Assembly (NCBI GenBank): GCA_947453445.1
Contig: CANGGP010000003.1
Coordinates: 1-64,000 of the forward strand
Origin: Sphingobacteriaceae bacterium
GTDB lineage: Bacteria; Bacteroidota; Bacteroidia; B-17B0; Aurantibacillaceae
Reading direction: 5' to 3'
Length of the DNA stretch: 64,000 nucleotides
This document shows positions 7,021 through 49,621 of the stretch, in pieces. The notes beneath the pieces were generated by a model. The model was not told the origin of the DNA and ran no database searches. It was given only the letters and a program-made list of their open reading frames with translations. Each line of letters starts with the position of its first letter. Position 1 is the first letter of the stretch. The position numbers and the translations under genes were made by a program.

Positions 7021-7045
7021 AAAAAAAGCCCTGCGACACAGGGCT
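7021..7045 (-). terminator. Second of two tandem terminators after the Lys/Ala mini-protein
   Basis: A 7 bp stem AGCCCTG/CAGGGCT (7027-7033 with 7039-7045) with a 5-base loop; on the minus strand it is followed directly by seven T. It lies 12 bases beyond another hairpin, so the mini-gene at 7086-7199 has a double terminator. Confidence 0.85.
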
Positions 7046-7056
7046 CATAAGCGAAT

Positions 7057-7080
7057 TAAAAAGCCCCGCTCTGCGGGGCT
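7057..7080 (-). terminator. First tandem terminator after the Lys/Ala mini-protein
   Basis: An 8 bp perfect stem AGCCCCGC/GCGGGGCT (7062-7069 with 7073-7080), 3-base loop, and a minus-strand T run (TTTTT) after it. It begins only 5 bases beyond the stop codon of the 37-residue gene, which strongly supports that this short gene is a real transcription unit. Confidence 0.88.
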
Positions 7081-7085
7081 CTTTA

Positions 7086-38289: not shown

Positions 38290-41097
38290 TTATAGTTTTG
38301 CTTTGATTTCTATCATCTCGTATCCTTCAATGATATCACCAATTACAATGTCGTTAAAACCTTCAATATCTAAACCGCACTCGTAACCTGAAGCCACTTC
38401 TTTCACATCGTCTTTAAATCGTTTTAATGATCCTAAGGCGCCCGAATGAATTACGATGCCGTCGCGTATCACACGAACTTTTGTATTGCGCGTTACTTTT
38501 CCGTCTAACACATAACAACCTGCAATGGTTCCAACTTTGGTAATTTTAAATACTTCACGTACTTCAATATTACACACAATTTTCTCCTCAAACTCAGGTG
38601 CCAACATGCCTTCCATAGCAGCCTTTATTTCATTGATGGCATCGTAAATAATTGAATACAAACGAATGTCGATTTCTTCTACCTCTGCCAATTTACGGGC
38701 ACTGGTACTTGGTCGTACTTGGAAGCCTAAGATGATTGCGTTTGATGCAGAAGCCAACAACACATCACTTTCACTAATGGCACCAACCGATTTATGAATA
38801 ATGTTCACCGCAATTTTTTCAGTTGAAAGTTTTAACAACGAATCCGCTAAAGCTTCAATCGAACCATCTACGTCACCTTTAATAATGATGTTTAATTCCT
38901 TAAAGTCTCCAATCGCCAAACGACGACCAATTTCATCCAAGGTAATGTGTTTGTGTGTGCGTATGCCTTGTTCGCGTTGCAATTGTAATCGTTTATTCGC
39001 AATTTCTCTTGCCTCACGCTCATCGTTCATCACGTTAAATTTATCTCCCGCTTGTGGCGCACCGCTTAATCCCAATACTTTCACCGGATGTGATGGGCCT
39101 GCTTGGTCCACCTTTTGACCGCGCTCATTAAACATCGCACGTACACGTCCGCTGTAACTACCGGCCAACATAATGTCGCCAATTTTTAAAGTTCCCGTTT
39201 GCACCAAAATCGTTGATACATAACCACGGCCTTCTTCCATACTGGCTTCAATTACACTACCTGCGGCATTGCGCTTAGGGTTCGCTTTTAAATCCATCAT
39301 GTCGGCTTCCAACAACACTTTCTCTAACAATAAATCAATGTTTTTTCCTTGTTTTGCCGATACTTCCTGACATTGGTATTTACCACCCCACTCTTCAACC
39401 AAAATATTCATTTGCGATAAGCCTTCACGAATTTTATCAGGATTTGCACCTGGCTTATCAATTTTATTGATCGCAAAAATCATGCGAACCCCCGCTGCTT
39501 GCGCATGGTTAATGGCTTCTTTGGTTTGCGGCATGATGCTGTCGTCGGCCGCTACCACAATAATGGCGATATCGGTAATTTTAGCACCACGTGCACGCAT
39601 GGCCGTAAAGGCTTCGTGACCAGGTGTATCTAAAAATGTCACACTGCGGTTGTCGGCCAATTTAACATTGTATGCACCAATATGTTGTGTAATGCCTCCG
39701 GCTTCGCCGGCTACAACATTTGCACTGCGTATAAAATCCAATAACGATGTTTTACCGTGGTCAACGTGACCCATCACCGTAACAATTGGTGGACGAGGAA
39801 TTAAATCTTCAGCAGAATCTTTATCTTCTTCAATTGATTCAATATCCTCAGCACTGCCAAATTCAATTTTGTAACCAAATTCTTCGGCAACAATTGAAAT
39901 CGTTTCAGCATCTAAACGTTGGTTAATCGAAACAAATAAGCCCAACGACATACAGGTAGAAATAATTTGCGTTACCTGCACATTCATCATTTGCGCCAAC
40001 TGATTTGCACTCACAAACTCAGCCACACGCAACAACTTCTTGTCTGCTTCAGCAATCTCAGCTTTTTCAGCCATACGGTCACGAATCTCATCACGTTTTT
40101 CACGACGGTATTTCGATGTTTTCGACTTATTTCCTTTTTCACTCAAACGCGCTAAAGTTTCCTTTATCTGTGCTTGAATTTCTTCTTCAGTAAGCTCATG
40201 ACGTGGTTTGCCCGGCGTTGCAGGCCCCGGCTTTTTCGCGCGCGGATCACCATATTTTTCTTTGGCTCTCTCACGGGCAATTGCCGATTGCTCTTTCCCT
40301 ACTTTCTTAATTTCTTCTTCCGATAAGCCTCCCTTGCGTATGCGCTTGCGTTTTTTCTTGTCGGCGGCACTTGCGTTAGGATTGGTAACCGGTGGTTTCT
40401 TTAAGGTTTCCTTGGCAACCGGTAACTCAACACGACCTAAAATTTTAGGTCCTTCAAGTTTTTCGTATTTGGTTTCAATAAACTCTTCTTTCGGCTCTTG
40501 TTTTACTTCAGGCTCTGGCACAATCACCACTACCTTTGGTTCTTCAACTTTTGGCTCCTCTTCCTCCTTAACAACTTTTGCCGATTTTTTAGCAGGTTTC
40601 GCTTCTGTCTTCGCTTTTTTATCCGGTTTGGTTTTTAAATTCAAAGAATCTAAATCCAATTTACCCAATACCTTGGGGCCTTCGAAACTCGTTTCTGCCT
40701 CAACTTTAACAGGGGCTGATTCTTCCTTCACCACGTCAACAACTTCAGGCGCAGATACAGGCTCCTCCTGTTCCTTATTAACGGTTAAGTCTTTAATCAC
40801 AACAACCTTAGGGTCTTGTTCTTTCTCTTTCTTAACCTTGACTTCCTCCAATACAATGGATTCACGTTTTACTTTTAAAGTAGAAACCTGACTCACATTT
40901 TCGGCTTCTTCACGCGCAGATTTATCGCTCGAGAATTCCTTCAACAGCAATTTATATTCTGTATCTCCAAGTTTTGAATTTGGATTATTGTCAATTTTAT
41001 GTCCTTTAGTCGCTAGGAACTCAATAATCTTTGGTACAGATATATTAAACTCGAGTGCGGCTTTACTAAGCCTAAGTATTTTTGTTCCTTCGGTCAT
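38290..41097 (-). CDS. infB: Translation initiation factor IF-2
   Basis: IF-2 recruits initiator tRNA to the 30S subunit and is a GTPase. The 935-residue protein has an IF2N domain at residues 1-55 ([19 protein letters not shown]), a long Lys/Glu/Pro-rich linker to about residue 350 and a second IF2N-like segment ([20 protein letters not shown]). The G domain starts at about 444 with GHVDHGKTS, then [11 protein letters not shown] and NKIDKPGA; domains II-IV and the C-terminal fMet-tRNA domain complete it. The charged linker with repeated VKKEKEQ and KPAKKS is lineage-specific. It follows nusA by 54 bases. Confidence 0.96.
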
Positions 41098-41151: not shown

Positions 41152-42411
41152 TTATTCTTCAAACTCAGCACTCAATACTTCGCGAACACTCGCAATGGTT
41201 TCAACATCTAATCCGGTACGACGCTCTAATTCAGCATCACTTAATTCCAACACCGATTTAGCAGTATCGCAACCAATGGCTTTTAATTGTTCGATGATAT
41301 CACTTTCAATTTCGTCTGAAAATTCTTCCAAATCCACATCTTCAGTTTCAACATCAATGTCAGTATCACGGAATACATCAATTTCGTAGCCGGTTAATTT
41401 TCCTGCTAATTTAATGTTAAATCCGCCTTTTCCAATGGCTAAGCTAATTTGATCAGGTTTTAAAAACACCTCAGCACGCTTGGTTTCATCATCAATTTTA
41501 ATGGTGGTGATTTTTGCAGGGCTCAAAGCACGCTGAATCAACAAGTTTGAATTATTGGTAAAATTAATCACATCAATGTTCTCGTTCTTTAATTCTCTCA
41601 CGATACCATGAATACGCGAACCCTTCATCCCAACACAAGCACCAACCGGATCAATTCTGTCATCATAACTTTCAACGGCAACTTTTGCTCTTTCGCCCGG
41701 CTCACGTACAATTTTTTTAATGGTAATTAATCCGTCAAAAATTTCAGGTACTTCAGTTTCAAATAAACGCTCTAAGAAAACAGGTGAAGTTCTTGAAACA
41801 ACAATTGATGGTGTTCCATTTTTCATTTCTACTTTAGAAACAACGGCTTTAACTGTATCTCCTTTTTTGAAAAAGTCAGAAGGAATTTGCTCCGTTTTAG
41901 GCAATAACAATTCATTGCCCTCATCATCTACCAACATGATTTCTTTTTTCCATACTTGGTATACTTCGGCGGTGATTACATCACCAACTTTTTCTTTGTA
42001 CTTATTATAAATTTCACTCTTCTCGAGTTCAAGAATTTTTTGAACCAAATTCTGACGCACCGAAAGCACGGCACGACGACCAAAGTCTTCCAATTTCACG
42101 CTTTCCGACACATCTTCCCCAATTTCAAAATCAGGCTCAATTTTTTTAGCATCCGCTAAACTAATGTGCTTGTTTTCATCGTAATCAAATGAATCTTCCG
42201 CAAATTCATCATCTACAATTCTACGGTTCTTATAAATTTCAACATCGCCTTTATCAGGATTCACAATAATATCGAAGTTTTTATCTGAGCCATAACGCTT
42301 AATTAGCATGCTTCTAAAAACATCTTCAATGATGCTCATGAGTGTAGCACGATCGATATTCTTGATTTCTTTAAATTCTGAAAACGATTCGATTAGGTTA
42401 ACGCCTTCCAT
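41152..42411 (-). CDS. nusA: Transcription termination/antitermination protein NusA
   Basis: NusA binds RNA polymerase and RNA to modulate pausing and termination. The 419-residue protein has an N-terminal domain, an S1 domain (EVYQVWKKEIMLVDDEGNE region), KH1 (GACVGMKGSRIHGIVREL at about 245) and KH2 (ISLAIGKGGFNIKLAGKLTG). The acidic C-terminal repeat (DTDIDVETEDVDLEEFSDE) and a helical HhH-like end (DAELERRTGLDVETIASV) follow, in contrast to the longer E. coli C-terminus. Spacing to rimP is 11 bases. Confidence 0.95.
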   Translation of the reverse strand: MEGVNLIESFSEFKEIKNIDRATLMSIIEDVFRSMLIKRYGSDKNFDIIVNPDKGDVEIYKNRRIVDDEFAEDSFDYDENKHISLADAKKIEPDFEIGEDVSESVKLEDFGRRAVLSVRQNLVQKILELEKSEIYNKYKEKVGDVITAEVYQVWKKEIMLVDDEGNELLLPKTEQIPSDFFKKGDTVKAVVSKVEMKNGTPSIVVSRTSPVFLERLFETEVPEIFDGLITIKKIVREPGERAKVAVESYDDRIDPVGACVGMKGSRIHGIVRELKNENIDVINFTNNSNLLIQRALSPAKITTIKIDDETKRAEVFLKPDQISLAIGKGGFNIKLAGKLTGYEIDVFRDTDIDVETEDVDLEEFSDEIESDIIEQLKAIGCDTAKSVLELSDAELERRTGLDVETIASVREVLSAEFEE

Positions 42412-42422
42412 AGTATTAATTT

Positions 42423-42887
42423 TTAGTATTTAAGTTTAACTTTTGATTCTTTTATTTTATCTAAACTGATGATTTCTTGTTTCGTAACATTTATTTTGCC
42501 CTTGCCAATAGGCTTATTCTCTCTTACAACATACTCAAGGGTTAATACATCACCGTTAAATGCAATTAACTTTCCGCCTGTTTTGTTGCCGTCCAACAAC
42601 TTAATTTCAAAATCACGGCCAATGTGTTTTATGTATTGACGTGGCATCACCAAAGGGCTGGTTGCCCCATGCGAACTAACGTCCAATGCAAAATCTTCCG
42701 ATTCACGGTCCAATTGCCCCTCAATGGCTCTGCTTAAGCCTACGCAGTCCTTAATGGTTACCCCATCATCGCCGTCAATCAACACCGAAATGTGATTGTC
42801 GGAAGCGACCTTAATACCGGTAACATAAATGTTGGTGCCGGTTAAATGCGCATTCGCTAATTCAAGTATGTATTCTTTTGTTATCAA
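42423..42887 (-). CDS. rimP: Ribosome assembly cofactor RimP
   Basis: RimP is needed for late 30S maturation. The start is taken at the TTG at 42887, giving 154 residues beginning ITKEYILEL, which fits family length and N-terminus; the frame reaches ATG 42926, but that would translate through the leader hairpin. The alpha-beta domain shows CVGLSRAIEGQLDRESEDFALDV and the GRDFEIKLLDG segment, and the SH3-like C-terminal domain ends in KESKVKLKY. First gene of rimP-nusA-infB. Start confidence is moderate. Confidence 0.88.
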   Translation of the reverse strand: MITKEYILELANAHLTGTNIYVTGIKVASDNHISVLIDGDDGVTIKDCVGLSRAIEGQLDRESEDFALDVSSHGATSPLVMPRQYIKHIGRDFEIKLLDGNKTGGKLIAFNGDVLTLEYVVRENKPIGKGKINVTKQEIISLDKIKESKVKLKY

Positions 42888-42898
42888 TTTTTTGAGAA

Positions 42899-42924
42899 TA
42901 AAAGAGGGGACTTTAGGTCCCCTC
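42899..42924 (-). promoter_or_regulatory. Terminator-like hairpin in the rimP leader
   Basis: On the minus strand GAGGGGAC-CTAAA-GTCCCCTC (8 bp perfect GC-rich stem, 42904-42911 with 42917-42924) is followed by TTTTATT. It sits between the candidate promoter (42946-42973) and the TTG start of rimP, i.e. in the leader. The form is that of an intrinsic terminator, so it may be a transcription attenuator for rimP-nusA-infB. This is a sequence observation; attenuation itself is inferred. Confidence 0.6.
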
Positions 42925-42945
42925 ACTCATTTTTTATTTCGGGCA

Positions 42946-42973
42946 CAAATATATACAATTATTTATTAACAAA
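42946..42973 (-). promoter_or_regulatory. Candidate promoter of the rimP-nusA-infB operon
   Basis: On the minus strand TTTG (42973-42970) precedes TATATTTG (42953-42946) with 16 bases between, resembling the -33/-7 promoter of Bacteroidota although the spacing is on the short side. It predicts a transcription start near 42938, upstream of the leader hairpin. Confidence 0.5.
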
Positions 42974-43045
42974 AAAATAAAAATTTACCGCCAATACCAA
43001 CCTTTTGGCCTTGAGTTTCGTGTACATAAGAAAGGCCCATAAAAC

Positions 43046-43360
43046 ATGACTAAAAAAAGCATTAAAATCATCGTCCTTCTTGTGACCATGTTATTTGCTA
43101 ACATCGAGGCTGCCCACGCCGGCTTGGTTCATAAACTTAAACTTTACATCCACCATGAGTTTGCCACTTGGCAATTTGTGCTAATCCTTTGTGCTCTGAT
43201 GCTCTTAAGTTTTATTTCCTATATCGTTCTTACCCCCGTATCAATCGGTAAACAAAAATTAATACTGTTAACCTCATTTAGCTTCACCAAAGATAGTTTC
43301 GACGCTAAACGGAAATTTGTCACAAAAACAGGGAATATCCTAAGCAACACCAAAGCCTAA
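43046..43360 (+). CDS. Small membrane protein with signal sequence, unknown
   Basis: A 104-residue protein with an N-terminal signal (MTKKSIKIIVLLVTMLFANIEAAHAG), a Leu/His-rich segment, one internal membrane helix (WQFVLILCALMLLSFISYIVL, about residues 42-62) and a basic C-terminal tail (KDSFDAKRKFVTKTGN). I do not recognise the family. It is divergent from the rimP operon and precedes acpP by 139 bases, with a promoter for acpP in between, so it is likely its own unit. Confidence 0.6.
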   Translation: MTKKSIKIIVLLVTMLFANIEAAHAGLVHKLKLYIHHEFATWQFVLILCALMLLSFISYIVLTPVSIGKQKLILLTSFSFTKDSFDAKRKFVTKTGNILSNTKA

Positions 43361-43444
43361 ACTTACTAGGCCTGTGTGTTAGCTACTTATAATGCTATAT
43401 TTCAGGTATTTATCAAAAAACAAGTTCTATTTTAATTTTAAAAT

Positions 43445-43474
43445 TTTGAATTCGCTTCTATATTTTTATTTTTG
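43445..43474 (+). promoter_or_regulatory. Promoter of acpP
   Basis: TTTG at 43445-43448 and TATTTTTG at 43467-43474 with 18 bases between them match the Bacteroidota -33/-7 promoter (TTTG...TAnnTTTG). The predicted start lies near 43481, about 18 bases before the acpP ATG at 43499, which also supports that start over the longer open frame from 43472. Confidence 0.7.
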
Positions 43475-43498
43475 TGTCGAATTTTAAACAAAACAATA

Positions 43499-43738
43499 AT
43501 GTCTGACATTGCAAACAAAGTAAAATCTATCATCGTTGACAAATTAGGTGTTGATGAAAAAGAAGTAACCCCAACCGCTAGTTTTACCAATGATCTTGGT
43601 GCTGATTCGCTAGATACTGTGGAGCTTATCATGGAGTTTGAAAAAGAATTTAACATCGCTATTCCTGACGAACAAGCTGAAAAAATTGGTACAGTAGGCG
43701 ACGCGATTTCTTACATCGAAGCAAACGCAAAAAACTAA
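43499..43738 (+). CDS. acpP: Acyl carrier protein
   Basis: A 79-residue acyl carrier protein for type II fatty acid synthesis. The phosphopantetheine site is the serine in [16 protein letters not shown], at about residue 39. The protein is strongly acidic ([16 protein letters not shown]) as expected. The start MSDIANK at 43499 is used; codons upstream to 43472 lie in the promoter. fabF follows 12 bases downstream, the usual acpP-fabF pair. Confidence 0.96.
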
Positions 43739-43750
43739 TTCTTTTATTAT

Positions 43751-45004
43751 ATGCAATTAAAACGTGTAGTAGTTACCGGTCTCGGTGCTGTAACGCCGTT
43801 GGGCAATAGTGTTAATGACTATTGGAATAACCTCAAAAATGGCGTTAGCGGAGCCGCTAATATTACACGTTTTGATGCCTCTAAATTTAAAACCCGCTTC
43901 GCTTGCGAGGTAAAAGGTTTTAACCCGGAAGATTATTTTGACAAGAAAGAAGCCCGTAAATTGGACGCTTTTTCTTGGTATGGCATTGCAGCCAGCGTGC
44001 AAGCAGTGGCCGACGCAGGACTCGAAAATCCGGGCATCGACAAAAATGAAGTTGGTGTGATTTGGGGAAGCGGCATTGGTGGTTTGGATACTTTTCAAAC
44101 CGAAACCTTCGCCTTCGCAAAAGGTGACGGAACACCAAGATTTAATCCTTTTTTTATTCCTAAAATGATCGCCGACATCTGCAGCGGTCATATTTCTATG
44201 CGTTTTGGTTTCAGAGGACCAAACTTTACAACCGTTTCGGCTTGCGCTTCTTCTACAAATGCATTAATTGATGCTTTCAATTATATTCGTTTAGGTAAAG
44301 CCAATGCCATTGTAACCGGTGGTTCTGAAGCAGCTATTAACGAAAGTGGCATGGGTGGCTTTAACGCTTGCCAAGCCATGAGCACCCGCAACGAAGAGCC
44401 TTCAAAAGCCTCTCGCCCTTACGACAAAGAACGTGATGGCTTTGTGCTTGGCGAAGGCAGTGGCGCTATCGTTTTAGAAGAATTAGAACATGCCCTGGCC
44501 CGCGGAGCTAAAATTTACGCAGAAATTATTGGCGGAGGCATGAGTGCCGATGCACACCATATTACCGCCCCACACCCCGAAGGTTTAGGCGCAACACTGG
44601 TAATGAACCGCGCATTGAAAGATGCAGGCATTTTAACTACCGATGTTGATTATATCAATACACACGGTACCAGCACCCCATTGGGCGATGTGGCCGAACT
44701 AAAAGCTATCATCAATGTATTTGGTGACCATGCTTTTAAACTCAATATCAGCTCAACAAAAAGTATGACCGGCCATTTACTTGGTGCAGCGGGCGCCATC
44801 GAAGGCATCGCCACAATCATGTCGGTTGTCGATGATATCGTTCCTCCAACCATTAACCATGTAAACGTTGATCCCGAAATCGACCCGCGTTTAAATCTCA
44901 CCTTTAACGCCTCTCAAAAACGCACTGTCAATATTGCCATCAGCAATACTTTTGGCTTTGGCGGACACAATGCTGCTGTTGTGGTAAAGAAATTTAAAGC
45001 TTAA
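43751..45004 (+). CDS. fabF: Beta-ketoacyl-ACP synthase II
   Basis: Condenses malonyl-ACP with acyl-ACP in fatty acid elongation. The 417-residue enzyme has the Cys-His-His triad: cysteine in TVSACASSTNA near residue 164, histidine in NTHGTSTPLGD near 303 and histidine in STKSMTGHLLGAAG near 340. N-terminal RVVVTGLGAVTPLGN and length of just over 410 residues are family-typical. Part of acpP-fabF-rnc. Confidence 0.96.
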   Translation: MQLKRVVVTGLGAVTPLGNSVNDYWNNLKNGVSGAANITRFDASKFKTRFACEVKGFNPEDYFDKKEARKLDAFSWYGIAASVQAVADAGLENPGIDKNEVGVIWGSGIGGLDTFQTETFAFAKGDGTPRFNPFFIPKMIADICSGHISMRFGFRGPNFTTVSACASSTNALIDAFNYIRLGKANAIVTGGSEAAINESGMGGFNACQAMSTRNEEPSKASRPYDKERDGFVLGEGSGAIVLEELEHALARGAKIYAEIIGGGMSADAHHITAPHPEGLGATLVMNRALKDAGILTTDVDYINTHGTSTPLGDVAELKAIINVFGDHAFKLNISSTKSMTGHLLGAAGAIEGIATIMSVVDDIVPPTINHVNVDPEIDPRLNLTFNASQKRTVNIAISNTFGFGGHNAAVVVKKFKA

Positions 45005-45008
45005 TCTC

Positions 45009-45749
45009 TTGGCATTAAAACAGTTTTTTTCGTTTTTAGGAAATCATTCTGAAAAAGGCGATAAAAAATTTAAACAATGGGTTAAAAGCATCACCGGCTA
45101 CAGTCCCGTCAATTTATCTTTATACGTTCAAGCTTTTAATCACAGCTCGGCACTTCGAAAAAATGATTCGGTAAAAATTAGCAACGAAAGGCTCGAGTTT
45201 TTAGGCGATGCCATATTAGGTGCCATTGTTGCCGATTACCTCTTTAATATTTTTCCTTTAAAAGACGAAGGCTTTTTAACCCAACTGCGTAGCAAAATTG
45301 TAAATGGCTACTCACTTAAACATTTATCACTCAAATTTGGATTCGATATTTACCTCAAAGGCTCACTTACAAAAGAAGAAAAATTAAAATCAAGTGCTTA
45401 TGGCGATGCCTTTGAAGCCTTTGTTGGCGCTGTTTACCTCGATTTAGGATACAACAAAACCAAACAATTTGTAATCGCCAAAGTCATCAACACCCATCTC
45501 GACATCAATAGTTTGGTTAAAACCAACGAAGATTTTAAAAGCCAACTTCAAATTTATTGTCAAAAAAATAAATTTAACCTCGAATACCGATTGGTGTCGG
45601 AAGAAAAGGTTGGCAATCAAAAATTATTCGCCATTCAAGTGTTTATCGACGAAAAACCATACATTCGATTCGAGAGCTACAGCAAAAAATTGGCCGAACA
45701 AAAGGCTGCACAATTAACACTTCAAGAAATAAATCAAAGCATTGGCTAA
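45009..45749 (+). CDS. rnc: Ribonuclease III
   Basis: Cleaves double-stranded RNA, including the rRNA precursor. The 246-residue protein has the signature ERLEFLGDAILG at about residue 60 (catalytic Glu/Asp), the second acidic cluster in AYGDAFEAFVGAVYLDLGY near residue 133, and a C-terminal dsRNA-binding domain starting about residue 175 (FKSQLQIYCQKN, KKLAEQKAAQLTLQEI). The start is TTG 4 bases after the fabF stop; no ATG fits. The next gene starts within its last codons. Confidence 0.93.
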   Translation: MALKQFFSFLGNHSEKGDKKFKQWVKSITGYSPVNLSLYVQAFNHSSALRKNDSVKISNERLEFLGDAILGAIVADYLFNIFPLKDEGFLTQLRSKIVNGYSLKHLSLKFGFDIYLKGSLTKEEKLKSSAYGDAFEAFVGAVYLDLGYNKTKQFVIAKVINTHLDINSLVKTNEDFKSQLQIYCQKNKFNLEYRLVSEEKVGNQKLFAIQVFIDEKPYIRFESYSKKLAEQKAAQLTLQEINQSIG

Positions 45750-46227
45750 ACATGTTTTAAATACCGGTGATGATGAACTAAATTTTACACTCATCGGTAT
45801 TGCCTGCGCCGAAGACCAATACCGCATGATCAGCTTATTGAACGATGCTCTAAACATTCAACTTTATTTGAGCGATTATTTAGCGCTGCTTGCCAAGGAT
45901 GATAAAGTATTTAAATTTTCGCTTTTTCGCTTTGTGGATGAAGATTTAAGATTAGAAATTAACTGCATCCCAAACAACAGTAATTTTGAAGAACCACACA
46001 TTGAACAAGCCCAAAGTTTAGATTTGTTCAACGGCCTTAAGCTCGATGAAAGTAGTAAGTTGATTCGCGAATTGCCCAAAACCGACTATTTTCTAATGCT
46101 CAAAGGCGACGAATCACATACACATCAATTTGTGGTCATCGATAAACTCAAAAAAATTTCAGAAATTCTTCAAATTCAAAGCATCGAACCGCATGAGTTA
46201 TCGAGCAGAAAAAATCTTATTTTCTAA
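45742..46227 (+). CDS. IPExxxVDY family protein
   Basis: A 161-residue cytoplasmic protein of the Bacteroidota-specific family named for an IPExxxVDY motif, here in a variant ELPKTDYFLML near residues 112-122. The order fabF-rnc-IPExxxVDY is conserved in the phylum. It starts with TTG inside the last codons of rnc (8 bases overlap), and the first residues MAKHVLN fit family members. No function is established. Confidence 0.82.
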   Translation: MAKHVLNTGDDELNFTLIGIACAEDQYRMISLLNDALNIQLYLSDYLALLAKDDKVFKFSLFRFVDEDLRLEINCIPNNSNFEEPHIEQAQSLDLFNGLKLDESSKLIRELPKTDYFLMLKGDESHTHQFVVIDKLKKISEILQIQSIEPHELSSRKNLIF

Positions 46228-46251
46228 TTCTTTTCTTAATATCTTTAGGTG

Positions 46252-46902
46252 ATGGACGAATTTCAAAAGCACATTTCCCAATTAAGAGATGATTTTACAT
46301 TTAGCACATTAAGTGAAAAAGATGTCGAAGCAAACCCATTCTTTCAATTCGAAAAATGGTTGCTTGAAGCAGTGGCCTACAAAGTGCCCGAAGTACAAGC
46401 CATGCAGCTTTGCACCGTATCTGAGCGCAATAGTCCTTCATCACGCATTGTATATTTGCGTGAATTTAAAAATCACCAATTTACATTTTACGGAAATTAT
46501 TTATCCAAAAAAGGCATTCATTTAGAACACAACCCAAACGCGGCATTAAGCTTTTTTTGGCCGCAACTCGAACGACAAATAAGAATTGAAGGTGTTGTTA
46601 AAAAAATTTCAGCCGAATTAAGCGACCAATACTTTAATTCACGCCCCCGCGAATCGCAAATAGGCGCATGGGCATCCAATCAAAGTGAAACCATTCTAAC
46701 GCGCAACGAACTTGAAGAGAAAAATATTCATTTCGAAAAACAGTTTAAAAATATACCCGTTACACGGCCACCTCATTGGGGCGGTTGGAGCCTGGAAGCA
46801 AATTATTACGAGTTTTGGCAAGGCCGTAAAAGTCGATTACATGATAGAATTAGCTATTCCTTAACAGAAAATTCATGGCAACTTAACCGATTAGCACCAT
46901 AA
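46252..46902 (+). CDS. pdxH: Pyridoxamine 5'-phosphate oxidase
   Basis: Oxidises pyridoxamine/pyridoxine 5'-phosphate to PLP with FMN. The 216-residue protein starts at ATG 46252 (a GTG lies one codon earlier). Landmarks: a FMN-binding RIVYLREFKNHQFTFYGNY (around residues 65-83), FFWPQLERQIRIEGVVKKI and the C-terminal PPHWGGWSLEANYYEFWQGR with RLHDRISY, the catalytic/substrate arginine-histidine block. Complete and normal in length. Confidence 0.93.
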   Translation: MDEFQKHISQLRDDFTFSTLSEKDVEANPFFQFEKWLLEAVAYKVPEVQAMQLCTVSERNSPSSRIVYLREFKNHQFTFYGNYLSKKGIHLEHNPNAALSFFWPQLERQIRIEGVVKKISAELSDQYFNSRPRESQIGAWASNQSETILTRNELEEKNIHFEKQFKNIPVTRPPHWGGWSLEANYYEFWQGRKSRLHDRISYSLTENSWQLNRLAP

Positions 46903-46939
46903 ACTTAACGAGCCAAATCTACCTTCACACTCTATTGTG

Positions 46940-47338
46940 ATGAAGTCGATTGTATTTTTTGCCCTTACTTTAATTCTTTTTTCTTGTGCAAAGCAACAAG
47001 GCCTTTTGCAAGCTCCATCCTTGGTCTGCGATACATTAAAACCTATTCCGATTAATCTCTGCTTATTAAACGATTCCTCCTCCGTATCATACACCCGTGT
47101 TGTTAAAAAAATATTCGACAATAATTGTATGCCTTGTCATGCAAAACCGGGTTCAGGAGGCATTAATTTAGACACTTACGATCAATGCAAAGCAACCGCA
47201 CAAAGTGGACAACTTATTCCTATTGTTGTGTATAGCCCCGGCAACACCTTTATGCCCCCACCCCCTCAAAAACCTTTGGATTCGTGTGAAATAAAAGCCT
47301 TAAATTTATGGATTAAGCAAGGTTGTTTGCTTAATTGA
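46940..47338 (+). CDS. Mono-haem cytochrome c-like lipoprotein
   Basis: A 132-residue lipoprotein: signal with lipobox LFSC near residue 15, then a linker and a C-terminal domain with one CxxCH haem motif (CMPCH at about residue 63, IFDNNCMPCHAKPGS) and a candidate axial Met in NTFMPPPPQ. The layout, and the ending CEIKALNLWIKQGCLL, fit the planctomycete-like cytochrome c domain of Bacteroidota. It probably is periplasmic or outer-membrane anchored; electron partner unknown. One base separates its stop from the agmatinase gene start. Confidence 0.8.
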   Translation: MKSIVFFALTLILFSCAKQQGLLQAPSLVCDTLKPIPINLCLLNDSSSVSYTRVVKKIFDNNCMPCHAKPGSGGINLDTYDQCKATAQSGQLIPIVVYSPGNTFMPPPPQKPLDSCEIKALNLWIKQGCLLN

Positions 47339-47339
47339 T

Positions 47340-48395
47340 ATGACAAAAGAAGAAAAGATTTCACAATTCGACCCCAATGGCATTGGCCAGTTAAACGATG
47401 GCTTATTCGGTTTGCCATTTACTTTAGATGAATGCGAAACAGTTTTAATTCCTGTACCTTGGGAAGTAACTGTGAGTTACGGTGGCGGCACTGCCAATGG
47501 TCCTGAAGCCATACGCATGGCAAGCTACCAAGTTGATTTGTTCGACCCGCTGGTAAAAGATGCTTGGAAAAAAGGCATCGCCATGGAAGACATCGACACC
47601 AACATCCAAGAAAAAAGTAATCAATTGCGGCAATCTGCCGAACGTTACATCGAAGCCTTGGCCAATGGTGCCGATGAAAACGAACCTTCACTCAAAAAAA
47701 TAGCCCACAACATTCAATCCGAATGTGTGTGGCTTAACAATTGGGTGAAAGAAAAGGTTTTGCACCGTTTAAATCAAAACAAAATCGTTGGCTTAATTGG
47801 TGGCGACCACTCTGCACCATTGGGTATGATGCAAGCCTTGGCCGAAAAATTCAAAAGTTTTGCCGTACTGCAACTTGATGCACACGCCGATTTAAGAGAT
47901 GCCTACGAAGGTTTTGAGTTTTCACACGCCTCCATCATGTTTAACGCACTTAAAATTCCTCAAATTGAAAAGTTAGTGCAAGTTGGCATCCGCGACTATT
48001 GTGAGGCCGAGTTCAATTTAATTCAAAACAGCAATGGCCGTGTGGTTACATTTTTCGATCGTAATATCAAACAAACACAATACCATGGTGATAGTTGGGA
48101 CAGGATATGTAACCGCATCATTCGCGAACTGCCCCAACACATTTATTTAAGTTTCGACATTGATGCATTAGATCCTAAATTATGCCCGCACACCGGAACC
48201 CCCGTTGCCGGTGGATTTGAGACTGAACAAATTTTGTTTTTACTTGAAAAAATTGTGCAAAGCGGAAAAACCATCATTGCCTTCGACATCAATGAAGTAG
48301 CACCGGGAAGCGAAGAAGATGAATGGGACGCAAACGTAGCGGCCCGATTGTTATACAGAATTGCAAACCTTACAGCAATGAGTCAAAATCGCTAA
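47340..48395 (+). CDS. Agmatinase/arginase (ureohydrolase) family protein
   Basis: A 351-residue ureohydrolase. All manganese ligands are present: the histidine in IGGDHSAPLG near residue 155, the DAHAD motif (LQLDAHADLRDAY near 180) and the aspartates in SFDIDALDP near 273. The N-terminal GGGTANGPEAIRMAS also matches. Substrate may be agmatine, guanidinobutyrate or formiminoglutamate; family assignment alone does not decide. It is followed by a thioredoxin-like gene whose start overlaps its stop (TAATG). Confidence 0.88.
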   Translation: MTKEEKISQFDPNGIGQLNDGLFGLPFTLDECETVLIPVPWEVTVSYGGGTANGPEAIRMASYQVDLFDPLVKDAWKKGIAMEDIDTNIQEKSNQLRQSAERYIEALANGADENEPSLKKIAHNIQSECVWLNNWVKEKVLHRLNQNKIVGLIGGDHSAPLGMMQALAEKFKSFAVLQLDAHADLRDAYEGFEFSHASIMFNALKIPQIEKLVQVGIRDYCEAEFNLIQNSNGRVVTFFDRNIKQTQYHGDSWDRICNRIIRELPQHIYLSFDIDALDPKLCPHTGTPVAGGFETEQILFLLEKIVQSGKTIIAFDINEVAPGSEEDEWDANVAARLLYRIANLTAMSQNR

Positions 48396-49621
48396 TGCGC
48401 AAAATTTTATTCGCCATATTTCTTTTTTGCTCGGCTGCCATGTATTCAAAAAAATTAAAAGAAGGAATGTACAGGGCAGTGCTCGTGTTGGATGAAAAAA
48501 ACAACATCGAACTGCCTTTTAATTTTGATGTGCTTTACAAAAATAAAAAACCCCTTATTGTTATTCACAATGCCGACGAAAGAATTGAAGTGGATGAAAT
48601 ATTTTTAAAAGATGATTCTGTCATTTTTAAAATGCCTGTTTTCGACACTGAATTTAGGGCAAAAATGAACAAACAAGGCCTCGATGGGGTATGGATTAAC
48701 CACTACCGCAAAGAAAAAAACACCATCAAATTTAAAGCCAGCCACAACGATAACCGTCGCTTTATTGCCGAAAAATCAAACGGCCCGGCCTTGTTTGAAG
48801 GCAAATGGGAAGTAAGCTTTTCACCCAACAAACCCGATGCCTACAAAGCAATTGGACTTTTTCATCACATTGAACAAAGTCAATTGGTGTATGGTACATT
48901 TTTAACCGAAACGGGCGACTACCGTTATTTAGAAGGCACGCAAATCAATAATCAATTGTTTTTATCATGCTTCGATGGCAGCCATGCATTTTTATTCATC
49001 GCAAAATTAGATTCAAGCGGTCAATTATTTGGTGAGTTTTATAGCGGCAGCCATTGGAAAGAAAACTGGACAGGTTTAAAAAATGAAAAATTTGAACTTA
49101 AAAACGCCGAGCAAATCACACGGGTATTATCTGCCAATGCCAAACCAAATTTTAGCTTTTCGAATCTCAAAGCACAAATGGTTTCTTTAGAGGATGCAAA
49201 GTTTAAAAACAAACCTGTTCTTATACAAATAATGGGCAGCTGGTGCCCCAATTGTATGGATGAAAGCGCCTACCTATCGCCCATATACAGCCAATACAAA
49301 GACCAAGGATTTGAAATCATTGCCTTGGCTTTCGAAAAAACCGACAACATCGACTTGGCAAAAAAACAACTCAGTCGCCTGCAATTGCGATTTGGCATTC
49401 AATACGAAATTTTAACAACAGGTTTTAGCGGAAAAACAAAGGCCTCTGAATTGTTCCCAATGCTTTCAGAAATAAGCGCTTTTCCAACTTTAATTTTTTT
49501 AAATAAACAACATCAAATCGTAAAAGTACATACGGGTTTCAGCGGACCGGCCACCGGCAAGGCTTTTGAGGAGTTTAAATCGGCCACTGAATCATTTATC
49601 CACCAATTAATTAATCAATAA
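48395..49621 (+). CDS. TlpA-like thioredoxin-domain protein
   Basis: A secreted protein of 408 residues starting at the ATG at 48395 that overlaps the previous stop; the open frame extends 24 codons further upstream, but these lie in the agmatinase gene. A signal peptide (MRKILFAIFLFCSAAMYSK) is followed by an N-terminal beta-rich domain of about 240 residues of unknown type and a C-terminal TlpA/AhpC-TSA domain with active site WCPNC at about residue 283 (QIMGSWCPNCMDES). Likely reduces or isomerises periplasmic disulphides. Start overlaps the previous gene and the stop overlaps ribE. Confidence 0.82.
   Translation: MRKILFAIFLFCSAAMYSKKLKEGMYRAVLVLDEKNNIELPFNFDVLYKNKKPLIVIHNADERIEVDEIFLKDDSVIFKMPVFDTEFRAKMNKQGLDGVWINHYRKEKNTIKFKASHNDNRRFIAEKSNGPALFEGKWEVSFSPNKPDAYKAIGLFHHIEQSQLVYGTFLTETGDYRYLEGTQINNQLFLSCFDGSHAFLFIAKLDSSGQLFGEFYSGSHWKENWTGLKNEKFELKNAEQITRVLSANAKPNFSFSNLKAQMVSLEDAKFKNKPVLIQIMGSWCPNCMDESAYLSPIYSQYKDQGFEIIALAFEKTDNIDLAKKQLSRLQLRFGIQYEILTTGFSGKTKASELFPMLSEISAFPTLIFLNKQHQIVKVHTGFSGPATGKAFEEFKSATESFIHQLINQ

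Follow-up and report, generated by a model that had tools for sequence, protein, structure and literature searches.

A terminator-like hairpin in the rimP-nusA-infB leader of a Sphingobacteriaceae bacterium and its spread through sampled Bacteroidota

The rimP-nusA-infB locus and its leader

The window analyzed here, a stretch of 64,000 nucleotides from a Sphingobacteriaceae bacterium, carries the genes rimP, nusA and infB in this order on its minus strand (Table 1). The RimP match spans residues 1-154 on profile positions 1-154 of NF002531. A leader element is located at the head of these three genes, between a promoter motif and the TTG start of rimP. The next open reading frames (ORFs) beyond the rimP promoter motif point away from it: first 43046-43360 on the plus strand, then acpP and fabF. 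The first of these, which encodes 104 aa and lies between rimP and acpP, gave no match in Pfam or NCBIfam, and its N-terminus, judged by eye, resembles a signal or membrane segment.

Table 1. Genes and predicted leader features of the locus (window coordinates).
Feature	Position	Strand	Description and basis
infB (IF-2)	38290..41097	minus	TIGR00487 IF-2, E 1.9e-240
nusA	41152..42411	minus	TIGR01953 NusA, E 5.3e-116
rimP	42423..42887	minus	TTG start, most likely, at 42887; NCBIfam NF002531 RimP, E 4.2e-47
Interrupted T-tract, TTTTATTC	42896..42903	minus	Directly after the hairpin; tail of an intrinsic terminator; reads TTTTATT
Hairpin, GAGGGGAC-CTAAA-GTCCCCTC	42904..42924	minus	About +16 to +36 of the predicted leader RNA
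Inferred transcription start (about +1)	42939..42940	minus	From the position of the -7 element
Candidate -7 element, TATATTTG	42946..42953	minus	Fits the TAnnTTTG consensus
Possible -33 element, TTTG	42970..42973	minus	16 nt before the -7 element; from the window sequence and the promoter consensus

A sequence-only reading of this DNA had described a GC-rich 8 bp hairpin, followed by a T-rich run, between the promoter and the TTG of rimP, and these coordinates hold. The stem (42924-42904) consists of eight perfect pairs, six of them GC, and with the directly adjoining U-tract on the coding strand it gives the predicted anatomy of an intrinsic (Rho-independent) terminator. The rimP leader RNA folded with a predicted energy of -18.3 to -18.7 kcal/mol (z of -4.21 and -4.56 in two runs), and none of 200 shuffles folded as well in either run. 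Both the minimum-energy and the centroid folds contained the 42924-42904 hairpin, to which a longer stretch added one stem of 3-4 pairs; a competing fold of the hairpin arms, of the antiterminator type, was absent from the predicted folds of the window leader. A candidate leader peptide overlapping the hairpin (ATGAGTGAGGGGACCTAA) was dropped, as, judged by eye, it did not seem to be kept in relatives.

Terminator-like matches are common in this DNA. Eleven were found in 41500-48500, versus 7.0 (sd 2.4) in shuffles, and a similar rule applied to the whole window marked 14 places on one strand and 22 on the other, some of them overlapping. One such match is unremarkable by itself; it is conservation at one place that gives it significance. 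The pattern GGGGACN{2,7}GTCCCC occurs once in the 3.7-Mb genome to which the window belongs, at the rimP-leader hairpin, and at least once in 20 of the 21 genomes searched; in class-level genomes the matches were not always at rimP. Elsewhere in the window, tandem GC-rich hairpins with T-tracts were observed on the minus strand at 7026-7081 (7081-7061 and 7046-7026, 14 nt apart); the coding end before them appears lysine/alanine-rich by eye.

TAnnTTTG is the -7 promoter consensus of the Bacteroidota type. If the candidate -7 element works as in other Bacteroidota, the T-tract would end at about +44 and translation would begin at about +53. A second match to the leader was detected in the same genome (L002, G000:C48:2434-2482; 82%), which covered only positions 11-54 of the query. 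These correspond to window positions 42990-42947, that is, to the AT-rich promoter side without the hairpin part.

Conservation of the leader and of the rimP start

A RimP search gave 81 matches in 80 of the 87 genomes of the family; the second fragment in G018 was dropped, and 80 leaders were used. A strict hairpin rule, which called for 5 or more pairs (with G-T accepted), 4 or more GC pairs, a loop of 3-10 nt and 5 or more T in 8, was applied blind to the last 90 nt before the rimP start. It identified a hairpin in 79 of the 80 leaders, versus a mean of 0.8 out of 80 over five rounds of dinucleotide shuffling; conservation of the hairpin in relatives, which the sequence-only reading had named as a check, is thereby borne out. 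In the one family miss (G007), the hairpin is present by eye and the T-rich tail is absent. The same rule found nothing upstream of recA (0 out of 30; control regions from the best-scoring 30 of 58 matched genomes). It fired three times upstream of 53 window ORFs (taken from 61 listed, with nested or overlapping ORFs left out), one of these matches being rimP itself. The opposite strand also passed the strict rule in 47 of the 80 family leaders, and the sequence before the hairpin is A-rich. As a separate observation, the plus strand of 42904-42924 could halt antisense transcription headed for the promoter. The genome of the window (G000), rated 100% complete, gave no RecA (PF00154) match, which is perhaps due to an assembly gap; such a match was found in 58 of 61 family genomes.

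The tail was characterized on stems chosen without any tail rule, for which 70 of the 80 family leaders were usable. Counted from the last GC pair, T made up 79-96% at each of +3 to +6, +8 and +9, and the run was interrupted at +7, where A was found in 66%. The 5' arm was G-rich in 76 of the 79 family hairpins and ended in GGGGAC in 45, while the loop ranged from 3 to 9 nt among family relatives. The distance from the stem end to the rimP start, 16 nt in the window, was 10-44 nt in the 79 family leaders and 10-19 nt in 73 of them. When 38 of the 78 distinct family leaders were aligned with MAFFT, the varying loop length led to a misplaced 5' arm, and this alignment was not used for pair counts. 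The pair tallies come from hairpins that were required beforehand to pair, and they show the variety of pairs rather than independent covariation.

In 71 of the 79 family leaders, versus 2.1 in mononucleotide shuffles, the first letter of a strict TAnnTTTG motif was located 25-40 nt upstream of the hairpin, from which we conclude that the hairpin belongs to the rimP transcript. Outside the family, the motif occurred at this spacing in 56 of 72 class-set leaders and in only 7 of 46 phylum-set leaders; the promoter part is therefore less widely shared than the hairpin.

From 206 matched genomes outside the family, 136 leaders were used (77 of 105 from the class search and 59 of 101 added by the phylum search), comprising the 56 best-scoring loci and 80 others picked mostly to cover different families. 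The phylum-search set still includes genomes of the window's class, e.g., G231, G255, G279, G290, G294 and G301. Here, 170 nt before the RimP domain were scanned without anchoring on a start codon. The strict rule identified a hairpin in 114 of the 136 leaders, versus 3.2 in shuffles (70 of 77 in the class-search set and 44 of 59 in the phylum-search set), and the opposite strand passed in 47 of 136. The distance from the hairpin to the RimP domain varied, with hits more than 140 nt upstream in G193, G228, G225, G211 and G273. Among the 22 leaders that failed the strict rule, 19 gave some hairpin under a looser one; as this looser rule also scored 11 of 136 shuffled copies, and picked a hairpin other than that visible by eye in G202 and G097, these 19 leaders were left out of the tally. 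In the other three (G111, G176 and G162, out of 136), no hairpin was found even under the looser rule.

Pairing was kept across lineages in stems of differing sequence: GGGGAC/GTCCCC, GGGAAC/GTTCCC, TACCCCG/CGGGGTA, TCGCCC/GGGCGA, GTGGGG/CCCCAC and AGCCCG/CGGGCT. GGGGAC ended the 5' arm in 43 of 118 hairpins from other families, among which GTGGGG, TCGCCC and AGCCCG also recurred; the 5' arm was G-rich in 102 of these hairpins and C-rich in 14, with 2 ties. Since the stem letters vary while the fold and the T-tract stay, the rimP leader appears to be under selection for an intrinsic terminator.

In the 80 genomes of the family, the counterpart of the codon at 42887 was ATG (46), TTG (31), GTG (2) or GTA (1), the last in G059, where the alignment is distant and uncertain. 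A GTG at 42926, in frame through the hairpin, was considered as a start and rejected, based on the position of the homologous starts and on in-frame stops. Such a stop, located between the homologous start and the hairpin 5' arm (up to 3 nt before the arm), was found in 42 of 79 family leaders. In the window's genus, it was present in 13 of 38 leaders and the frame was open in 25; the frame argument against 42926 is weaker inside the genus, where an occasional longer form may be possible. The sequence-only reading had held that translation from 42926 would speak against an attenuator, and the comparison instead favors 42887, where rimP translation most likely starts. In the window's genus, this start was TTG in 30 of 39 genomes; elsewhere in the family it was ATG in 39 of 41. 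Across 30 loci (L003-L032), nusA started with ATG in all 30 and rimP with TTG in 27. That the genus conserves a weak start codon, TTG, for rimP is unexpected.

Possible function of the leader hairpin

In our view, the leader element is probably an attenuator of transcription that belongs to the rimP-leader kind and relies on intrinsic termination, whatever its effector. The terminator-like attenuator suggested by the sequence-only reading thus receives strong support from the position, the T-tract and the conservation of the hairpin. This grading covers the attenuator only, and it overlaps with the alternative that differs solely in the effector. With such a hairpin, the cell would very probably be able to throttle rimP-nusA-infB. 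RNA polymerase would start at about 42939 and, after some 40-45 nt, the nascent RNA would fold the GGGGAC/GUCCCC hairpin and reach the U-tract. There, termination in vivo would be expected: a fraction of the polymerases would release a short leader RNA, and the remainder would read into rimP. A protein would set the stopping fraction, with NusA as the first candidate in its capacity as a stimulator of termination, so that more NusA would mean less transcription of the operon.

A protein most likely sets the read-through, because the U-tract has an interruption and no competing antiterminator is seen in the predicted leader fold. In B. subtilis, distal U-tract interruptions are frequent in NusG-dependent terminators, which in this respect are akin to NusA-dependent ones (PMC8060035). 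By analogy, the interrupted U-tract favors a factor-stimulated terminator, which is no proof of one. The sequence itself names no effector and nothing in it points to NusA. The analogous cases of B. subtilis and S. agalactiae make NusA the likeliest protein to set termination efficiency.

That the hairpin terminates under an effector other than NusA is a real, if somewhat doubtful, possibility. The effector could be RimP, IF-2, NusG, a ribosomal protein or growth-dependent elongation, or the hairpin could be a constant tuner without feedback. RimP was named as a possibility by Naville and Gautheret (PMC2965389), and the recurrence of GGGGAC at the end of the 5' arm despite varying loops (45 of 79 hairpins in the family and 43 of 118 elsewhere) looks as if these letters had a specific reader. 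Against this stand the published cases: in B. subtilis, NusA is reported to exert feedback by stimulating termination in the leader (PMC12288461), and a NusA loop was suggested for S. agalactiae with reference to a parallel in E. coli (PMC4448216). In a more speculative form, which we regard as rather unlikely, the rimP leader of Bacteroidota would be a sequence-specific terminator whose GGGGAC/GUCCCC letters are read by NusA or RimP, combined in the genus with a UUG brake on initiation. Termination and initiation would then form two layers of control over the operon, with the UUG brake acting on rimP but not on nusA.

The hairpin could instead act mainly on translation or mRNA stability, by blocking or positioning the ribosome or by protecting the 5' end. 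Its place 16 nt before a weak TTG would suit such a role, as would the narrow spacing seen in the family (10-19 nt from the start in 73 of 79 leaders) and the preference of the genus for TTG on rimP (30 of 39) versus ATG on nusA (30 of 30 loci). However, the family and other lineages alike retain the strong T-tract directly behind the stem, while a hairpin with this function needs none; moreover, outside the family the hairpin lies at varying distances from the RimP domain. Taken together, these observations make a primary role in translation or stability unlikely.

We regard it as highly improbable that the hairpin is close to rimP only by chance and serves as the usual 3' terminator of a gene further upstream, or as a bidirectional terminator. 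The opposite strand does pass the rule in 47 of the 80 family leaders, and other window hairpins of the same anatomy resemble 3' terminators: by eye, the two matches found upstream of ORFs other than rimP follow the stop of a preceding same-strand frame. However, the next ORFs beyond the promoter (43046-43360 on the plus strand, acpP and fabF) point away, and the spacing between the promoter motif and the hairpin downstream of it is nearly constant. There is similarly little chance that the inverted repeat, palindromic and just downstream of the promoter motif as it is, serves as a DNA operator for a repressor. Constant spacing would be expected of an operator, but the loop ranges from 3 to 9 nt among relatives; the stems of different lineages are also built from several types of pairs, and an operator has no need of the strand-specific T-tract behind them.

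With the leader hairpin taken as an attenuator, the rimP leader offers a small, naturally occurring site at which Nus-stimulated termination can be examined in Bacteroidota. A terminator-like rimP leader, with differing stem letters, is widespread in this phylum and extends to sampled lineages beyond the class of the window, and for this reason NusA feedback control may be very old.

Comparison with known rimP leaders

No Rfam family matched anywhere in the 64,000-nt window at the gathering score. Among the 24 matches obtained for 42840-43000 up to an E-value of 10, there was no rimP family; the top of this list was L20_leader on the opposite strand (E 0.024; 21.5 bits, with a cut-off of 58.7). 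The Rfam rimP model RF01770 (102 positions; gathering score 47 bits) was over its cut-off in 0 of 21 genomes, the matches listed all being below it. The model is narrow, since it was over the cut-off in only one of 14 named control genomes. In the literature searched, we found no test of NusA feedback at the rimP leader in Bacteroidota, and among open-license papers none that treats Bacteroides, nusA and rimP together. The main text of a B. thetaiotaomicron transcriptome study (PMC7366714) does not mention rimP or nusA, and that of PMC2864571 does not mention rimP, nusA, yhbC or ylxS.

The rimP-leader was described by Naville and Gautheret (2010; PMC2965389) as a hairpin with a G-rich 5' arm, a C-rich 3' arm, a T-stretch and a conserved GGGc(...)gCCC motif, located within the rimP-nusA-infB 5' UTR at 4-130 nt from the gene start. 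These authors reported no visible antiterminator and proposed NusA as the best candidate; the letters "bacteroid" do not occur in the main text of their article. The window leader is alike in its place in the 5' UTR, its G-rich and C-rich arms, its T-stretch, its distance of 16 nt from the start and its lack of an antiterminator. The resemblance to the GGGc/gCCC motif is only partial: the GGGGAC/GUCCCC stem has the GGG/CCC core and a C-G pair next to the loop, but the two are separated by an A-T pair. Some of the relatives studied here differ from that description in carrying the C-rich arm first.

In B. subtilis, NusA-stimulated termination in the 5' leader is reported to autoregulate nusA (Mondal et al. 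2016, as cited in the review PMC12288461). Both leaders place a terminator where it controls, or would control, transcription into the NusA gene; however, the B. subtilis leader is 180 nt long (PMC2965389), versus an inferred length of about 53 nt here, and NusA dependence is reported for B. subtilis and a proposal here. In S. agalactiae, termination was mapped 31 nt after the start site of gbs0413-gbs0418 (rimP-nusA-infB), a short RNA and a long transcript share this one start, and NusA feedback was suggested (PMC4448216). The window leader likewise has a predicted intrinsic terminator a few tens of nucleotides after its predicted start site, with a termination point expected at about 40-45 nt. 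The sequence-only reading had contrasted E. coli as autoregulating nusA through another layout, which is not quite right, as in E. coli, too, rimP is preceded by terminators, t1 and t2 (PMC6511841), and rimP-leaders have been described in Gammaproteobacteria (PMC2965389).

A parallel from the same phylum is found in Flavobacterium psychrophilum, in which a transcribed, structured 5' element without an Rfam hit lies upstream of rimP. This element is present in other genera of Flavobacteriaceae and was reported as a probably original cis-regulatory element, for which section 19 of the article proposes no mechanism (PMC9723704). It occupies the same place upstream of rimP as the element studied here, a likeness by description and not by sequence, and the two are very probably the same, which would tie this unexplained flavobacterial element to the rimP-leader class. 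Overall, the leader element is best explained as a switch of a known kind, already found in other bacteria, and fits the rimP-leader attenuator class; what is new is its wide spread through the sampled Bacteroidota with changing stem letters, together with the conserved TTG beside the hairpin.
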